IMG/VR virus record: IMGVR_UViG_3300010885_036910
Span: 1 to 29,156 of that record
From: a virus
DNA: 29,156 nucleotides
Direction: 5' to 3' (one strand)
The translations under genes were made by a program, and so were the position numbers. Positions within the stretch are counted from its first letter, which is position 1; every line of letters starts with the position of its first letter. Below the pieces are notes generated by a model that saw only the letters and a list, made by a program, of their open reading frames with translations, was not told the DNA's origin and searched no databases. Shown here in pieces: positions 1,012 to 10,372 of this stretch.

Positions 1012-1773
1012 TTACTCGCCCTTATGCATAAAAGCAAATGGACATTTTGGTTTATTAGTATCTTCTTCTGTATAATGTTTTTTAGTATGAAAATTATTTA
1101 AATATCTATCGAAAAAACTTGTGTGTGCTTTTTTCCAAATCTTTAAAAGTATTCCGTCTTTATCCCAAGAGCAACTAGAAACAAATTTTTGTCTTTTAAA
1201 AGGTATGACCTGTATCATAGGTGTTCCTTTGGGAATAAGACCTGAGAAATTCTTTTTTAAAAAGAAAGGAAAATTAACGGGTGCTGGAAATTTATCTGTA
1301 TCGACTACAGCTGACAAACATTTAAAGGGAAGATCTTCATGGTGCAAAGGATGAACAAATAAACAAGACCATTCTTTAGGAGTTTTGATAGTCCATAAAT
1401 TAATAAATTTAAATGCTGTATTGTAGAAACCTTCAGGAACTGGGTAACCTATTAATTGTTCTTGTTTATGGCTTGATATAATTTCTATCCTATCCCAAGC
1501 CCATTGATATCTGATTTTACCTTGATCATTATAAACCCAAATATCACAAGGAGTGGTTATATGATAACCACTATTTAAAGAGTCTAAAAAAGGAATACAT
1601 TTTTTAACAGTACTATTAGGATCTCCAAAGTTATCTACAGTTTTAATGTTATTAATGTAGGAAGGTATATCTTTATACCAATTTGGAATATTTTTATATG
1701 ATGGAACTGGCTGAGGTGCTATATCAAAAAATTCTTTAGTAGCTGAAATAAATTGTAATTTAACTTTTTGCAT
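1012..1773 (-). CDS. Phage protein of a type common in marine myoviruses (possibly DUF6065), 253 aa
   Basis: The architecture matches, from memory, a protein found in many marine myoviruses. It has an N-terminal FDIAPQPVPSYKNIPNWYKD element, a central KKCIPFLDSLNSGYHITTP segment, a HHEDLPF / AVVDTDKFP block, and a C-terminal IPKGTPMIQVIPFKRQKF motif. I associate this layout with DUF6065, but cannot confirm the family number. The biochemical function of such proteins is unknown to me. The start codon overlaps the stop of the bilin reductase by one base (TAATG), so translation is probably coupled. It is soluble, rich in Trp, Phe and Pro, and lacks a signal peptide or membrane helix. Because relatives occur in phages without bilin genes, its place here may be incidental rather than a bilin role. 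Confidence 0.85.
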   Translation of the reverse strand: MQKVKLQFISATKEFFDIAPQPVPSYKNIPNWYKDIPSYINNIKTVDNFGDPNSTVKKCIPFLDSLNSGYHITTPCDIWVYNDQGKIRYQWAWDRIEIISSHKQEQLIGYPVPEGFYNTAFKFINLWTIKTPKEWSCLFVHPLHHEDLPFKCLSAVVDTDKFPAPVNFPFFLKKNFSGLIPKGTPMIQVIPFKRQKFVSSCSWDKDGILLKIWKKAHTSFFDRYLNNFHTKKHYTEEDTNKPKCPFAFMHKGE

Positions 1774-2420
1774 TAAATTTCTGGAAACATATAATTGTTT
1801 AAAAAATGTTTGGCATTCTCTTCCCCAACATCCACTGCTAGAGCTTTAAACGTTTTATCATTTTTCTTTTGACCAATACAATAACTATTTTGTTTTTCTA
1901 TATTTGCTTTGTATCTTTCTTTAAAAGATTCTGAATATTTTAAAAATTCTCTCGCAATGCTTCTTGAAGTGACTAATAAGAAATCCAACTCTTCTTCTTT
2001 TGGTGAAACACAAATGAAATTTTCTCCGAAGAAATTTGCCCATTCTGGAAGCTTTCTTTCAGGTGATACTATTGCATTTTTAAATTGTAATAGGTTCTTT
2101 TGAAGAATTTGGTTGGCATTAATAGGTGTAATATCAAAAAAGAAACCAGTAATTTTATTACCAATTTCGATAAAATCCAAACCTAATATAGGAATATCTA
2201 TAGTAGAGTTGGGGAAAATATTAGCATGTACTATACCAATTTTATTGGTTTTATAATATTGTATATGTATATGTCTAAAAATAGGACTTGTATAAATATT
2301 ATTTTGCCATATTAAATCAGTATTATACTGATCCTTATATAGGATTGGGCGTTCTGGGTAACCAAACGTACTTGTAAAATCTTGTGTTAAAAGATCAAAA
2401 AATTCTCTTAGCTTGTCCAT
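1773..2420 (-). CDS. Ferredoxin-dependent bilin reductase, PcyA/PcyX-type
   Basis: The 215-aa protein aligns along most of its length with phycocyanobilin:ferredoxin oxidoreductase. Landmarks are YTSPIFRHIH (about 43-52), VHANIFP (64-70), IPILGLDF (76-83), FDITP (95-99), FGENFICVSP (131-140) and YCIGQKKNDKT (180-190), with a C-terminal NNYMFPEI. His65 and Asp82 correspond to the catalytic PcyA His88/Asp105 pair. Having His at this site places it with PcyA/PcyX, because cyanophage PebS carries Asn. The catalytic PcyA Glu76 is Gln54 here, whereas PcyX is reported to have Asp. The family reduces biliverdin IX-alpha with electrons from ferredoxin, giving phycocyanobilin (PcyA) or phycoerythrobilin (PcyX, PebS); the product of this variant cannot be predicted. 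It is somewhat shorter than cyanobacterial PcyA (about 240 aa). The gene overlaps the heme oxygenase gene by 13 nt, so the two are almost certainly co-expressed. Confidence 0.93.
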   Translation of the reverse strand: MDKLREFFDLLTQDFTSTFGYPERPILYKDQYNTDLIWQNNIYTSPIFRHIHIQYYKTNKIGIVHANIFPNSTIDIPILGLDFIEIGNKITGFFFDITPINANQILQKNLLQFKNAIVSPERKLPEWANFFGENFICVSPKEEELDFLLVTSRSIAREFLKYSESFKERYKANIEKQNSYCIGQKKNDKTFKALAVDVGEENAKHFLNNYMFPEI

Positions 2421-2980
2421 ATTTCTTCGAATAGATTTATGTGAAACTGAAAGAAATTCTTTGTTTCATTGATAATGTTATCATTTAAAGTATCTGGTGT
2501 ATCTTTATCTAAAAGATATCTAACTGTAGTAATAACTGCCATAGGATCCTTTGATTGATATGTTTCATTATAAGGAGCTTGTGATTTAGCTAAAATTCTA
2601 CCACCGTAGAAATCTGCTAACCATCTAAGATAGAAATCAGCCTTAAGTAATTCTTCATTTTTAGTCCAGGAATTTGCAAGCCAGGTGCGAGTAATTGTTT
2701 TAATTGTACTCTTTGTATAGTTAGTATCTGCAATAAGCTTGTCTATATCTTTTTGTATAAAGGTACTCCTCTTTAAATCTATATTTTCTATAATTTCTTT
2801 TTGAAGAAGTCTTTGTTCTACAACCTGATAAATAGGTAAAAGATTAACAAGCAATTCAAGTAAATGTTCTTTCTTAAAAGAACCGTCTACAAAAGATTGC
2901 ATTAGAGGGTGTTGTTCTGAAGTTCTATGAAGTTCAGCGGTTTCTTCTTTTAAACGTATCTGTAAATTGTTAGTTGTCAT
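2408..2980 (-). CDS. ho1: Heme oxygenase (biliverdin-producing)
   Basis: This 190-aa protein has the all-helical heme oxygenase layout. The proximal helix contains LKEETAELHRTSE with the heme ligand His18 (aligned to human HO-1 His25). The distal helix contains YLRWLADFYGGRIL, with Asp123 aligned to catalytic Asp140 and Gly126-Gly127 to Gly143-Gly144. The C-terminal helix, HINLFEEIW, matches the usual LNIQLFEEL ending. It should cleave heme to biliverdin IX-alpha, CO and iron in the cytoplasm, supplying the reductase encoded just downstream. It is shorter than cyanobacterial HO1 (about 240 aa), mainly between the distal and final helices. An oddity is Ala122 at the position of distal Gly139. 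It is the first gene of the minus-strand cassette, and the gene diverging from it starts 51 bp away. Confidence 0.94.
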   Translation of the reverse strand: MTTNNLQIRLKEETAELHRTSEQHPLMQSFVDGSFKKEHLLELLVNLLPIYQVVEQRLLQKEIIENIDLKRSTFIQKDIDKLIADTNYTKSTIKTITRTWLANSWTKNEELLKADFYLRWLADFYGGRILAKSQAPYNETYQSKDPMAVITTVRYLLDKDTPDTLNDNIINETKNFFQFHINLFEEIWTS

Positions 2981-2984
2981 TTCA

Positions 2985-2995
2985 ATTATATTATA
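2985..2995 (-). promoter_or_regulatory. Candidate -10/late promoter element before the bilin genes
   Basis: The minus strand reads TATAATATAAT just before the heme oxygenase ATG at 2980, giving two overlapping TATAAT boxes. There is no convincing -35 at proper spacing (TTGATA lies 14 nt upstream of the first box). The element sits only a few bases from the ATG, as the TAAATA elements do in the structural block, so transcripts starting here would have almost no leader. Assignment rests on position and a short AT-rich match. Confidence 0.3.
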
Positions 2996-3014
2996 ACAAA
3001 AATTCAGATTATCA

Positions 3015-3022
3015 ACTAAATA
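3015..3022 (+). promoter_or_regulatory. TAAATA late-promoter-like element (ACTAAATA)
   Basis: ACTAAATA matches the T4-type late promoter core TATAAATA at 6 of 8 positions and is followed by TTATTAAAC and then the ATG of the 52-aa ORF. The extended form TAAATATTAT is the same as before the 117-, 1145- and 2451-aa genes on the other strand, so it is probably the same signal driving the plus-strand pair. Confidence 0.4.
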
Positions 3023-3031
3023 TTATTAAAC

Positions 3032-3190
3032 ATGAGCAATACTATTATAATTTTAAATTCTTATAATAAAAACGGTTTAACATTATCCGGTAATTACCCC
3101 GTTTATGTTAAAGGTATTTCTCAATGCTGTATAGATAAAAACGGCAAACAAGTAATAACCCCTGTTTACCCTATAGCCACTACAAAATAA
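3032..3190 (+). CDS. Small hypothetical protein, 52 aa, leading the vWA gene
   Basis: An ATG at 3032 opens a 52-codon frame (MSNTIIILNSYNKNG... ending YPIATTK) that stops at 3190, three bases before the ATG of the 1531-aa gene. The late-promoter-like element lies directly upstream, and the codon use looks like that of the neighbours. The protein contains one Cys pair (QCCI, about residues 31-34), alternating polar and hydrophobic strands and no membrane helix. No family is recognised. It could be a small virion protein or a leader ORF coupling translation to the large gene. Confidence 0.6.
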   Translation: MSNTIIILNSYNKNGLTLSGNYPVYVKGISQCCIDKNGKQVITPVYPIATTK

Positions 3191-3193
3191 TAA

Positions 3194-6100
3194 ATGAATT
3201 TATCAACAACATCTCCTTTATCATTCCAAGAATGGTCTAAAGAACAAGGCAATTTTGTAGAAATTTCTCAACAAAATTATTTAAATTATTTAAATTCTTG
3301 GTATGATTATAATAGTAGTAAAAAGGTATTAAAAAATCAATCTATTAGCAAGAAAGAACAATACATTCAATTGGTTAAAGATTTAACTTTTCTTTTTAAT
3401 GCGGATGAGAGAGATCTTTTTTTATCTCAAATTGATTTTTCTAATGAAGAGGATTTAATATATGTTATTCCTTACCTAGCACATAAACTTAAAGATATTA
3501 CCCAAATTTTAAATGCTAAGAGAGAATCTTTAAAAAATTCTAAAACAAAACATAGTTTAATAGGTTCTAATTTAGCTTTAGAAGAAATATTATACGAATA
3601 TATTTTAAAAAATTATACTAAAAAGGAATATTCTTACACAAAGGTTCCAGTATCACCGTTAGTTAACTTTTTCCCAGAGCTTTCTTCAGTTAATGAAAAT
3701 TTCTTTATAGAAATAGAAGAACTATATGATGATGAAAATTATCATGATTCTGACCCTTCTGTACCTATTTCAGAATATTTAAACTCCTCTGATTTAATTG
3801 ATACCTATCCTTTTCAAGATTTAACTCAAGATGAAATTGATAATCTTATTTCAACTAGATATTTGCCAAGGGTTGCTCCTACACCTCTCTCTAGGGTCTT
3901 TAGTCAATACCTAACAACCATATCTACCTTATCTACCTTATCCCTTTCTTCTTATTATGATTCTCAAATAAACAATTTAATAACTGGTTCAGAAAAATAT
4001 CTAGCAGAAAATATATACGGCCTTACCGCTATAAAAGTAGAAGAAACAAATATACCAGATTACATTTTAAATATAGGCATAGAACAAGGTAATAATTGGT
4101 TTTATTGGCCTAGTGGTGATAAGATTACTAATGATTCTTTAGCTGGAAATATTTTTTATCCTATAGAAATTAATAGTTCTAATTTAATCAATTCTATTTC
4201 TTCTATTTTTGGAAACGTAACTGGTTCTAGCTACCTTAATTCGGATTTAATTTTTACAGATAAAAACGGAACTATAGAAGGGGCTTGGTTAATGGGTGTT
4301 AGACAAGAAAATGTTAGTGATACTATGAATGTAGTCGTAGAATCCAATACTACTAAATCTTTCATATATCCTTTTGTAGGTTTTAATATCAATTTAAAAA
4401 ATTATTCTTTTAACGGATATTCTATTAAAGATTATGAATATGGATTATACAATTCGTTAGAGTCTATAGTAAAGCAAAATTTATTAACTTCTTATTATAC
4501 ATCCACTCTTCCTAATTCTGCTTCTTATGATATATATCTCAATCAGTCATCTCTTGTTAAAGCAGGCGCTTTAGCTGCAAAATTTTCTGATGAAGCTGAT
4601 ACTGTAAGAAAAAAAATAAATGATAATATTATTAATACTTCTTATGTAGATAGTATATTAGGTCTTACCGAGGAAGCTTATCTTTTCAAGTTTGATAAAA
4701 CAGATCTTCCTATTGTAGTTGGTGCTAATAATATTGCTTGGCCAGTTGCTAAATTAGATCAAGTAACCAATTTACCTTTAACTCTAAAAAAAGATACTTG
4801 CTTACCTATTGTAATAGGTCAAGTAGAACCTAATTCATCAATGATAGGAGCTGTAGCTGGTACAACTTTTGATACAGCAGATGTGATTTATAAAGCAACT
4901 GATCAAGATGAAAAAACTTTTATAGAAGCTGCTTGGTTGGCTGCTGGTTTGAATACACAATTAGATATATTAAAAGGTGCTATAGATGTTTATAATGGTT
5001 CACCTGCTTTAGATTGTGCTGAGTATTTAGAAGGTCCTTTACAACCATCTTTAGCTTTTAAGGCTGATGCCGGTACTTACGTATCCTTTATATGGGGTGA
5101 TGTAGATACTCCGGCTGACGAAGTTTTTCACTATCATCCCCATGCTAGTAATTGTCCATACGGAAAATCTTATCCACATAATTTTTATGCAAACCAAGAT
5201 TATCAAAATTCCAGTCCTTTAAATAATAGTAACATATTTCCTTTAAAGAAGAATTCTTGTACATGCAGATCTGCTTATTATTCTCCCATAGGTACAGAAG
5301 GTGTTAATGTAAAAGATTACAACGGAATGGCTGATTATCTTTTCGCAGATCCTTTTGGTTTAGGGAAAAGTTTTAGTTTATACGGTTGGAAAGATACTAG
5401 AAGATTAAATGTTAATAATAGTCCACAATTTTCTTTTTACCAAATAGACGGACAATTAGATAAAGAGGTAGGCTTTGGAAATGGAACTTGGAAAACTGGA
5501 AACGGTAGGAAAATGATTTTAAAAACCGGAAGAAGATATACCTATTATAGGTCTTCTTTAAGAAATCAGAGTGGTAATTCTACAGATGTTCCTTACATGC
5601 TTATTTATTATCCTTACAAGAATATTAATTTAATAGGTAAAAATGTATCATCTATTAATAATTCTGTAGTAACTAATCAAAATACAGATTTGGTTTTATT
5701 AATAGACAATAGTAGAACTCAAACATATGACCTAGATACTGTTAAAGAATTGGCAAAGTCCGTTTGCTCTAATATTATTAATAAAAATTTTGATGCTTTA
5801 ATATCTATAATTTCTTTTGCAAAAAATAGTATTGTTTTAAATTATTTAACAAATGATTTATCTTCTATTTTAAATCATATAAACAGTATTACAATTCAGG
5901 ATTATCCTAATTTTACAACAAACATATTAGACGGATTAAAATTGGCTAATAATATTTTTAATAATGTAGAACCTTTTAATAATGATTGTGGTAATACTAA
6001 TTTATGTTCTAATTTATCTACAGAAATTTTTAATTTAACTAATATATCTACTATTACAAATTGCCCGAGATCAGACTCATCAAAACAAATTATAATATTC

Positions 6101-7789
6101 AGTGATGGTCAAGAAACTGAAAATGTAGGAACTGCTATTCCTTATGCTCAAACTTTAAAAGAAAAGGGTATACAAATCACTTCTATGGACGTAGGAGAAG
6201 TTTCTGAAGGTAATGATTTAATGGAAACTATATGTTCTGATGGCTCTTATTTTAATCTTCAGAATTATCTTATTCATAGTGACGGTAATGTTCATAACTA
6301 TATAGAATATGTATCTCTTAAATTGATAGGAATATTCCCATCAATACCTACTTGGTGTAAAGCTGTTAAAAATTCTAATGGATTGTGGACTGGATTACCA
6401 GTTCCCTCGGATATGATTTTAAATCCAGGAGATTATATACAATATAGACATCAAAGTTCTATAATTTATATTGGTAATATCAAAGGATTTGTTCAAGATG
6501 CTATTTCCTTTGCTCTTAACATTAAATTGGATGGATGGGATTATGATACAAATACCTTTAGCGAAAAATGGATAGGAGATGCTTATGGTGCAAAACCTTT
6601 TTGGGGAAAATCTTATACATATATAGATTCTGATAATAATTTCTACAAACCGACTATTAGTTTTGGTGGACAAATAAGAATTTTAGAAGGTTATGTGCCA
6701 ATCCATCAACCGGAATTATCTGAAATGATTTTATCTAATGGTTGTTATATAGAATATACCAATAGAAATTCTAACATTTTGATTTGGCAGCAACCTTTGG
6801 ACTTTGTAGTAACCTTAAAAGATTCAAGATGGAATCAACTTATTATATCTAAAGATGTTTCTAATTTAGACTTTACTATGTATAATGGTAATCCTTTAGA
6901 TTTAATAGCAAAAGCTACTTACGAACCAAGTAATATTATTTTAGAAGGTTATTCTTCTTTCAAACCAGCCAAATACAATTACTACGCGCGCAATGCTTTT
7001 ACCTATACGGAAAATTTATACAATTTAAATGTATGTCAAAACAGTTTTGTAACTTTTGTTACTGGAAAGGTTTTAGATGCCACAGAACCTTATGCCAATT
7101 TAGATAATATTAACTATCCCACAGTAGCAACTATATCATTTCCAGTTAACGCGAAATCTGAAAAACAAACTGGTAGTTATTTAACTGTAGACAAACTAGG
7201 GACTCCTTATTATAGAGGTAAAGGGTATGAAATTGATATAGATCCAAATAGTCTTTCTTATATAAATTCTGTAAGTGCTGAAAGATTATTTTTGAATTTA
7301 GAAAAATACGGTCCTAGAAATAGGGGTTTGACCAAGAAAGATCAGACCTCACCTGTAATGATAAAAGATATAGATAATAGATGGTTGATGAAACCTAATA
7401 ATGCTGGTAATTCTTCTGGAATTATTATTGATACATTAAAAAATCAAAAAATTATACCTTATCAATCAAACTATGAAATAAACCCTAATAATCAATTAGG
7501 AGTTAGTTTACAAAGTGATAACGTTCAATTTTGGGATACAAATGATGTTAATGCTTGGACTAATGAATTAAATTATCCTTTAAATTTAAGAAAAGAATTG
7601 ACTCAAAATGTCTACAACGAGAGACGTAAATCATTACTAGTTAATGGAGGACAACTATATCGTTGGACAACCGATATTTTTGGCAACAATTACGCTTTAC
7701 TCAAAAACAATACAGGAGTTTTTATTACAGAATATGGTGTAATAATAGTTACAGAAAATAATAATATTCCTTTTGTAACAGAAAGTTAA
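3194..7789 (+). CDS. Giant virion-type protein with a von Willebrand A (MIDAS) domain, 1531 aa
   Basis: The N-terminal region (about 1-200) is helical and contains DERDLFLSQIDF and a KLKDITQILNAKRESLKNSK stretch, a signature I recall from large structural proteins of marine myoviruses; it probably anchors the protein in the virion. A Cys/His-rich loop occupies about 646-691. A vWA domain spans about 830-1020 with a full MIDAS set: Asp838-x-Ser840-x-Thr842 (LLIDNSRT), Thr908/Thr909 (FTTNILDGL) and Asp971 (IFSDGQE). The remaining C-terminal 500 residues are beta-rich. vWA domains bind ligands through a metal ion, so an adhesin or baseplate role is inferred. It has no signal peptide. It is one of only two plus-strand genes here, and its end overlaps the convergent Dps-like gene by 4 nt. 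Confidence 0.95.
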   Translation: MNLSTTSPLSFQEWSKEQGNFVEISQQNYLNYLNSWYDYNSSKKVLKNQSISKKEQYIQLVKDLTFLFNADERDLFLSQIDFSNEEDLIYVIPYLAHKLKDITQILNAKRESLKNSKTKHSLIGSNLALEEILYEYILKNYTKKEYSYTKVPVSPLVNFFPELSSVNENFFIEIEELYDDENYHDSDPSVPISEYLNSSDLIDTYPFQDLTQDEIDNLISTRYLPRVAPTPLSRVFSQYLTTISTLSTLSLSSYYDSQINNLITGSEKYLAENIYGLTAIKVEETNIPDYILNIGIEQGNNWFYWPSGDKITNDSLAGNIFYPIEINSSNLINSISSIFGNVTGSSYLNSDLIFTDKNGTIEGAWLMGVRQENVSDTMNVVVESNTTKSFIYPFVGFNINLKNYSFNGYSIKDYEYGLYNSLESIVKQNLLTSYYTSTLPNSASYDIYLNQSSLVKAGALAAKFSDEADTVRKKINDNIINTSYVDSILGLTEEAYLFKFDKTDLPIVVGANNIAWPVAKLDQVTNLPLTLKKDTCLPIVIGQVEPNSSMIGAVAGTTFDTADVIYKATDQDEKTFIEAAWLAAGLNTQLDILKGAIDVYNGSPALDCAEYLEGPLQPSLAFKADAGTYVSFIWGDVDTPADEVFHYHPHASNCPYGKSYPHNFYANQDYQNSSPLNNSNIFPLKKNSCTCRSAYYSPIGTEGVNVKDYNGMADYLFADPFGLGKSFSLYGWKDTRRLNVNNSPQFSFYQIDGQLDKEVGFGNGTWKTGNGRKMILKTGRRYTYYRSSLRNQSGNSTDVPYMLIYYPYKNINLIGKNVSSINNSVVTNQNTDLVLLIDNSRTQTYDLDTVKELAKSVCSNIINKNFDALISIISFAKNSIVLNYLTNDLSSILNHINSITIQDYPNFTTNILDGLKLANNIFNNVEPFNNDCGNTNLCSNLSTEIFNLTNISTITNCPRSDSSKQIIIFSDGQETENVGTAIPYAQTLKEKGIQITSMDVGEVSEGNDLMETICSDGSYFNLQNYLIHSDGNVHNYIEYVSLKLIGIFPSIPTWCKAVKNSNGLWTGLPVPSDMILNPGDYIQYRHQSSIIYIGNIKGFVQDAISFALNIKLDGWDYDTNTFSEKWIGDAYGAKPFWGKSYTYIDSDNNFYKPTISFGGQIRILEGYVPIHQPELSEMILSNGCYIEYTNRNSNILIWQQPLDFVVTLKDSRWNQLIISKDVSNLDFTMYNGNPLDLIAKATYEPSNIILEGYSSFKPAKYNYYARNAFTYTENLYNLNVCQNSFVTFVTGKVLDATEPYANLDNINYPTVATISFPVNAKSEKQTGSYLTVDKLGTPYYRGKGYEIDIDPNSLSYINSVSAERLFLNLEKYGPRNRGLTKKDQTSPVMIKDIDNRWLMKPNNAGNSSGIIIDTLKNQKIIPYQSNYEINPNNQLGVSLQSDNVQFWDTNDVNAWTNELNYPLNLRKELTQNVYNERRKSLLVNGGQLYRWTTDIFGNNYALLKNNTGVFITEYGVIIVTENNNIPFVTES

Positions 7790-8244
7790 AAAGAAATCAT
7801 AGAAAGAAGATAATTTGTTTTGTTAAACGTCGATATAATATCTTCTTTTGTATTATTTAATCCCGATTTAACTGATGTAATATAATTATTAAATTCTAAA
7901 GAAGTTAATATCTCTTGAATACTATTGTTAACTTTTTTATAAGAATTTAAAATATCCTCTGGAGAACCTTTAAATTGTTCTGTATTTAAGTCTAAATTAA
8001 AACTAAATCCAGGGAAAACTGCATTTTGAATTAAGGATGTGCCAATAATTTCTTCTTGAAGTTTGTCAAATAATCCGTCTAAAGATTCATAAAGATCACC
8101 TAAAATAATATGTACATTATGGTTACCTGCATACCAATGAAGTAAATGTATAGTTGAATGTATTTTTTTTAAAAAAATACCAAACTCACGAGTTGAATCT
8201 AAAGGATCTGGTTGTGATTGAATTTTTATTATTTCTATTTCCAT
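7786..8244 (-). CDS. Dps/ferritin-like small protein, 152 aa
   Basis: Residues 29-65 carry the pattern HSTIHLLHWYAGNHNVH...LGDLYESL...FDKLQEE, a helix pair resembling Dps/ferritin-like proteins. The spacing His33/His45/Asp60/Glu64 equals that of E. coli Dps His51/His63/Asp78/Glu82 (12, 15 and 4 residues). The Dps His-Trp dipeptide is present but shifted, at 36-37. Proteins with this HxxHW...H..LG..YE pattern occur in marine phages (I recall DUF5856-like families), where the function is not established. The C-terminal half is mostly helical and not recognised. It is the last gene of the long minus-strand structural run and lies one base after the CxxC gene, so it is probably made late. Iron binding is inferred, not shown. 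Confidence 0.85.
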   Translation of the reverse strand: MEIEIIKIQSQPDPLDSTREFGIFLKKIHSTIHLLHWYAGNHNVHIILGDLYESLDGLFDKLQEEIIGTSLIQNAVFPGFSFNLDLNTEQFKGSPEDILNSYKKVNNSIQEILTSLEFNNYITSVKSGLNNTKEDIISTFNKTNYLLSMISF

Positions 8245-9497: not shown

Positions 9498-10372
9498 GTT
9501 GTAATATATTTGTCAAATTGCCATTCGCAATTTTTAACTTTAAAAACTAAAGAAGTAATTATATCTGATTCCCATTCATCTTGGTATACCATAGATATAT
9601 CAGCTTGTATTTGACCTTTGGCAAAATGACTAGACAATGTCTCAACATCGCTCACGTGTATTTGTTTTAAAGTATTATTGTTAGTTGTTCCGTCATCTGC
9701 TGGGATATAATACCTAGATGTAGTTGCTAAAAAGGATTCCTCTAATGGAATATAAGGAGGCTTAATATATAAGCAGTCAACATCAATACATTTCTGACAA
9801 TTCCATTCTGATGGACAGCTGTATCCACCATTGCAAGATATAACAGGACCAAACGCAATGGTTTTGCAATTTGCACACAATCTAAAAGAATCTGTATAAC
9901 AAACTGTATAATCTGTTAAGGTTTCACTATAGTTTGTTTGTGTATAACTATCAGAGCCAGTTGTTTTTGTATAAACATTAACTATAATTTTTTGATTTTC
10001 GACGTAATTGTTTAATACAGGGTATTTTGAATTTAACCAAGAATTAATAGTTTTGTCATAGGATTGAGAATACGGGGTTCCTAAAATATAAGGATAAAAT
10101 ATAGTTATAGGCTGAAGCCATTTAGCACTGTTAGTTTCAATTGTTGTAGCAAAATCTGTCCAGCTGCCGGAGAATTGATTAACTAAAGATAAGACATTTT
10201 TATAATCTGCTATATTGTCATTATAAAAATCTATTATAGGTTTCCAATTATTATTGTATTGTGTTTGTATTTCTGACAACCAATTTTGTAAATTTATGTA
10301 ATTTGAATTTACAGATACCAGAGAATCTCCTATAGTTTCTGTATTTTGAATCTTGTAAAAATTATAATTCAT
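9494..10372 (-). CDS. Tail-fibre-type protein, member 2 of the paralogous array, 292 aa
   Basis: The start is placed at 10372 (MNYNFYKIQ) rather than the upstream ATG at 10417. GGAGGA lies 8 nt before 10372, the clearest Shine-Dalgarno in the window, and the longer form would overlap the preceding gene by 56 nt instead of 11. The fold order is a helical N-terminus, a W..PITIFYP element (about 100), a strand block INSWLNSKYP...NYVENQKIIVNVY, a Cys-rich segment with nine cysteines (CYTDSFRLCANC ... CNGGYSCPSEWNCQKC ... DC), and a C-terminal VFKVKNCEWQF. The W/YP and NxxYP...YVEN/DQ blocks align with the next gene, which marks them as paralogs. The Cys pairs suggest a metal-bound or disulfide-bonded knob. 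A tail-appendage role is inferred. Confidence 0.88.
   Translation of the reverse strand: MNYNFYKIQNTETIGDSLVSVNSNYINLQNWLSEIQTQYNNNWKPIIDFYNDNIADYKNVLSLVNQFSGSWTDFATTIETNSAKWLQPITIFYPYILGTPYSQSYDKTINSWLNSKYPVLNNYVENQKIIVNVYTKTTGSDSYTQTNYSETLTDYTVCYTDSFRLCANCKTIAFGPVISCNGGYSCPSEWNCQKCIDVDCLYIKPPYIPLEESFLATTSRYYIPADDGTTNNNTLKQIHVSDVETLSSHFAKGQIQADISMVYQDEWESDIITSLVFKVKNCEWQFDKYITT

Follow-up and report, generated by a model that had tools for sequence, protein, structure and literature searches.

A heme oxygenase–bilin reductase cassette with glutamine at the PcyA Glu76 position in a T4-like phage

The window analysed here, the whole 29,156-bp stretch of an IMG/VR virus record, contains two overlapping minus-strand genes flanked by phage tail genes. 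The first gene of the cassette (positions 2408–2980) encodes a 190-residue heme oxygenase (HO; PF01126, E = 6.4e-13, over the curated cut-off). The second (1773–2420), which shares 13 bases with the HO gene, encodes a 215-residue ferredoxin-dependent bilin reductase (FDBR; PF05996, E = 1.9e-20, 73.9 bits against a cut-off of 31). AlphaFold2 models of the FDBR and HO have pLDDT values of 91 and 92, respectively. The HO model displays an all-helical fold that Foldseek matches to Synechocystis HO1 (1we1), and the proximal His17, distal Asp122 and Gly125-Gly126 are conserved; fold, residues and PF01126 match are together those of an HO-1-type enzyme. The FDBR model matches the PcyA structures 2g18, 2d1e and 3i95 (best E = 4.8e-13; 2.6e-12 for the E76Q PcyA 3i95), and this fold, with the PF05996 score, places the protein in the FDBR family. 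Equivalents of His88 and Asp105 are present in the window FDBR, as in every PcyA-type sequence aligned, and most other active-site positions match PcyA. The PcyA triad Glu76-His88-Asp105, however, reads Gln-His-Asp in the window, where Gln is encoded by CAA, and Glu-His-Asp in the sister enzyme from contig L002; the window lineage also has Phe at the position of Tyr238, the partner of Glu76. The window Gln76 is the same change as in the laboratory mutant PDB 3i95, and this mutant chain gives the window FDBR a slightly higher score (59.4 bits) than wild-type 2d1e does (58.0 bits). An earlier note on this DNA had described an overlapping HO gene and PcyA-side FDBR gene amid phage genes, with the proximal His and distal Gly-Gly of HO and a His/Asp pair in the FDBR. 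The open reading frames, Pfam and Foldseek matches, AlphaFold2 models and tail-gene neighbours bear out this description, residues included, and both proteins fall in the HO and FDBR families; the Gln at the Glu76 position had been missed.

Most window proteins are 33–57% identical to proteins of the 177-kb contig G009, with blocks in the same layout. The major capsid protein of G009 is a gp23 homologue, and its DNA polymerase is ∼52% identical to those of contigs G003 and G001, which are related to T4-like polymerases. Because protein identity and gene layout match those of G009, the window is, judged by its gene content, a portion of a T4-like phage. A gene for a large VWA-domain protein amid the tail genes (3194–7789, plus strand; PF13519, E = 2.5e-7), with 55% identity to its counterpart in the matching place of G009, is divergent from the cassette and marks an insertion site, site A, common to contigs L003 and L017. 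Window DNA aligns to L003 over 1772–7704 and to L017 over 1777–7705. As the HO/tail-gene junction recurs in these independent contigs the cassette is not an assembly artefact, and the possibility raised with the earlier note, a host contig carrying an assembly join, was rejected. Also amid the tail genes, 7786–8244 (minus strand) encodes a Dps/ferritin-like protein (phrog_858), possibly serving iron storage, and G009 has one too. On the other side of the cassette, the start of a minus-strand gene (1012–1773) overlaps the FDBR stop codon (TAATG). Its product, phrog_7084, has no assigned function, and its best phage matches are to haloarchaeal tailed viruses (∼30% identity). The gene is absent at the corresponding place in the compared relatives and is therefore probably not a member of the conserved cassette. 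A candidate sigma-70-type promoter of the cassette, TTGATA-16-TAATAT (2988–3015, minus strand), is weak in the window, where 16 such matches against 15.6 by chance are not above expectation. At the matching place in L017, just upstream of HO (9955–9982, plus strand), TTGACA-16-TATAAT fits the sigma-70 consensus at 12/12 positions, and a near-copy of this sequence is present in L003.

HO lies directly upstream of FDBR in nearly all complete loci examined. Adjacent HO and FDBR genes are also found in L002, L003, L008, L009, L010, L012, L014, L017 and dozens of loci of the PcyA/PcyX clade (hereafter AX), and it is this adjacency on a phage genome that defines the pair as a phage hemO-FDBR auxiliary metabolic cassette. 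Site A, divergent from the VWA gene, is used in the window, L003 and L014/L017, and a second position, site B, directly after the DNA polymerase gene, in L002, L008, L009, L012 and L016. The DNA of the window and L002 aligns only over 1779–2968, corresponding to the cassette (85% identity), and the backbones represent different groups of phages, the window tail genes matching G009 and L002/G001 matching G003 (polymerase 87% identical). In the HO tree the window (site A) groups with L002, L008 and L012 (site B), with strong support for the window–L002 pair only, and in the FDBR tree L012 (site B) groups with L014/L017 (site A). Alignments and trees indicate that the cassette recombines between phages, and the two genes themselves probably do so too. 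Both are under purifying selection, with dN/dS values of 0.06–0.27 for the cassette genes and 0.06–0.18 for HO in pairs that include the window.

Two unrooted FDBR trees, of 66 and 35 rows, in which the bacterial FDBRs are two cyanobacterial references, place the window enzyme in a clade with L002, L003, L008, L012 and L014/L017 that adjoins L042–L045 (100/96 and 98/95). In both trees this clade is separate from cyanobacterial and cyanophage PcyA and from AX/PcyX. Membership of the PcyX clade, a grouping that the earlier note had named as support for its reading, was rejected (AU p = 2.6e-9), as was a topology joining the window clade to the whole of AX to the exclusion of L042–L045 and cyanobacterial PcyA (p = 0.014). 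The window FDBR also lacks the PcyX marker, having Gln rather than Asp at the Glu76 position. On this phylogeny the enzyme belongs to a separate lineage of T4-like phages, its closest relative being that of L002 (86% identity, Glu76). The sequence patterns used revealed no bacterial source of the lineage among 84,980 species genomes. A second scan, for AX-type FDBRs, found two MAG contigs, L139 (PBPT01000016.1, labelled Neomarinimicrobiota) and L140 (PALK01000009.1, labelled Rickettsiales), with an Hsp20-ClpS-HO-FDBR neighbourhood resembling the one seen in L010 and other viral contigs; both probably derive from phages and were binned into bacterial MAGs. AX-type FDBRs are common in IMG/VR, where one scan gave at least 539 confirmed stretches.

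Among 108 aligned sequences, the Glu76 position is occupied by Glu in 87, Asp in 10 and Gln in eight, with two gaps and one PebS. The Gln76 carriers are the window, L008/L009, L012, L014/L017, L045 and L076, a distribution that needs four changes on the tree, at least three of them on supported branches. Assembly error is an unlikely source of this residue because its codons are CAA or CAG, compared with GAA for Glu. Gln76 always occurs with Ile86, and in the PcyX-type rows Asp76 is paired with Met86; Glu76 is accompanied by either Val86 or Ile86. L002 is Glu76/Val86 and the window Gln76/Ile86. In the T4-like clades only positions 76 and 86, of 214 variable columns, show an identical residue change in each of the three sister pairs, and the three to four independent pairs that link Gln76 to Ile86 are too few for significance in a formal pair test. 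Hagiwara et al. in 2010 reportedly found that the E76Q mutant retains A-ring reduction, and Asp at position 76 of PcyX is said, from the work of Ledermann in 2018, not to be catalytic. In the PcyA structure Ile86 lies near Glu76 and Asp105 and is important for catalysis, and the first proton is considered to come from Glu76 (PMC9800206). Glu76 is required for reduction of the 18-vinyl group (D-ring), and phytochromobilin is the product of the pre-PcyA FDBRs, in which it is missing, one of them (pre-3) also making phycoerythrobilin (PEB) (PMC10151467). Six more Asp76/Met86 PcyX-type FDBRs were seen outside the Mosig group (L101, L112, L113, L117, L126 and L137); if these samples are freshwater, PcyX is not marine only. 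In contigs L087 (4294–5675) and L089 (4331–5672), which also bear a 5-aminolevulinate synthase gene, the HO gene precedes a tandem of two FDBR genes whose products have Asp76 (PcyX-type) and Glu76 (PcyA-type), in that order.

In 22 related contigs, which are partial so that absences from them carry little weight, no psbA, over-cut-off phycobilisome gene or Fer2 (ferredoxin) protein was found, nor did related contigs contain PHY (phytochrome) genes or a bilin-binding partner gene. Photosynthetic-antenna use is unlikely because searches of these contigs found no photosystem, phycobiliprotein, ferredoxin or phytochrome gene. Likewise, valaS (5-aminolevulinate synthase) was not found in the nine window-related records, themselves partial; of 18 other records three had it, each of AX type. 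The T4-like core genes are only ∼32–36% identical to their nearest phage matches, which come mostly from cyanophages and in one case from an unassigned Kyanoviridae phage, and therefore do not settle the host. A cyanophage is nevertheless disfavoured, as no psbA and no over-cut-off phycobilisome gene turned up in the 22 contigs. A non-cyanobacterial host is favoured by this and by HO, for which no relative was found at E 0.01 among 50,697 phage records; the source samples are, from their IMG identifiers, presumably freshwater.

In the proposed pathway HO would open heme to biliverdin IXα, freeing Fe(II) and CO, and the FDBR would then reduce biliverdin with reduced ferredoxin, presumably from the host since no Fer2 protein was found in the related contigs. 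With His88 and Asp105 intact the A-ring should still be reducible, while with Gln76 the 18-vinyl group of the D-ring should stay unreduced. As Glu76 is needed for the latter step, the prediction is that the reaction ends with a two-electron product of A-ring reduction, mainly phytochromobilin or a related bilin and not phycocyanobilin. The pigment probably serves a bilin-binding photoreceptor or globin of the host as its chromophore, and/or the reaction disposes of biliverdin while heme iron is recycled. Of the conversion of heme to a phycobilin that the earlier note proposed, the heme-to-bilin pair stands; a phycobilin as the product is questionable, since Gln occupies the position on which reduction of the D-ring vinyl group depends. 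We consider with moderate confidence that the locus is a portable two-gene cassette of T4-like phages infecting non-cyanobacterial, probably freshwater, bacteria, which converts biliverdin to a phytochromobilin-like product. More tentatively, this natural Glu76-to-Gln phage reductase may make phytochromobilin, or a bilin new to phages, with positions 76 and 86 forming a switch that has flipped time and again as the cassette moves between T4-like phages. The E76Q rule may not transfer to the window enzyme, because the mutant enzyme is only ∼20% identical and the window lineage has Phe in place of the Tyr238 partner.

Other functions were considered. In the freshwater phage CB_2 a hemO and pcyA/X pair was shown biochemically to turn heme into biliverdin and then phycocyanobilin (PMC11480375). 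The window FDBR could similarly be an ordinary freshwater phage PcyA that makes phycocyanobilin despite Gln76, another group giving the proton; most other active-site positions fit PcyA and the nearest relative has Glu. This is unlikely given the reported requirement for Glu76 in D-ring reduction (PMC10151467), and the CB_2 enzyme was placed on the AX side, intermediate to PcyX and PcyA (PMC11480375), a grouping rejected for the window clade (p = 0.014). Alternatively, with the carboxylate gone from position 76, reduction could be redirected to the 15,16 bond and so give PEB, the product of PcyX, which also lacks Glu76 (having Asp), and one of the products of pre-3. The enzyme has no PcyX kinship, however (AU p = 2.6e-9), and Asp76 PcyX-type enzymes carry Met86 where Gln76 enzymes carry Ile86, leaving a PcyX-like function quite improbable.

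A further explanation is that Fe(II) from host heme is the pay-off, the FDBR merely clearing biliverdin with a weakly constrained product that drifts as residue 76 changes between Glu and Gln. Iron supply has been proposed (PMC11480375), a Dps-like gene (phrog_858, 7786–8244) lies nearby, related contigs yielded no bilin-binding partner gene, and Glu and Gln alternate between proteins that are 86% identical. Purifying selection on both genes is clear, however, and the retention of FDBR beside HO in nearly all loci, together with the two different tandem FDBRs of L087 and L089, suggests that product identity matters; iron or heme handling as the pay-off is also quite improbable. A phytochromobilin-like product remains the preferred reading. 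Phycocyanobilin-making PcyA is set apart from the remaining FDBRs by position 76, for which most knowledge of what a substitution does comes from engineered mutants. As the window (Gln/Ile86) and L002 (Glu/Val86) enzymes are sisters that differ at this position, they provide a natural pair with which product choice can be tested. Mobile cassettes for bilin synthesis would exist in non-cyanobacterial phages in at least two distinct forms, which sharpens the question of what bilins do in infected cells that are presumably non-photosynthetic.

The phage HO-FDBR pair itself is not new, since such cassettes have been published for PcyX in marine phages and Mosig, and for CB_2. Like the freshwater phage CB_2, the window, presumably also of freshwater origin, combines HO with a PcyA-side FDBR in a large phage of a presumed non-cyanobacterial host, but CB_2, a pmoC phage of 527 kb, also encodes valaS and its PcyA makes phycocyanobilin, whereas the window clade is T4-like, valaS was not found in its records, its FDBR lineage is a different one and the window has Gln76. 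The ho1 and PcyX genes of pelagiphage Mosig and EBK42635 (PDB 5owg) share with the window an overlapping HO-FDBR arrangement, a T4-like phage of a non-cyanobacterium and the His88/Asp105 pair, although this PcyX is 26% identical to the window FDBR, has Asp76/Met86 and makes PEB. The cyanophage PcyA enzymes (P-SSM4, P-RSM6 and Sf-CH3) are likewise phage-borne FDBRs with the same active-site positions, but are 25–29% identical, retain Glu76 and Tyr238, have cyanobacterial hosts and lack an HO open reading frame within the flanks examined. Synechocystis PcyA E76Q (PDB 3i95) matches the window in Gln76 with His88, Asp105 and Ile86 kept, and differs in being an engineered cyanobacterial enzyme with ∼20% identity. 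By sequence comparison, the window departs from the known cases in an FDBR lineage apart from PcyA and AX, a natural Gln76 and a cassette that moves between phages.
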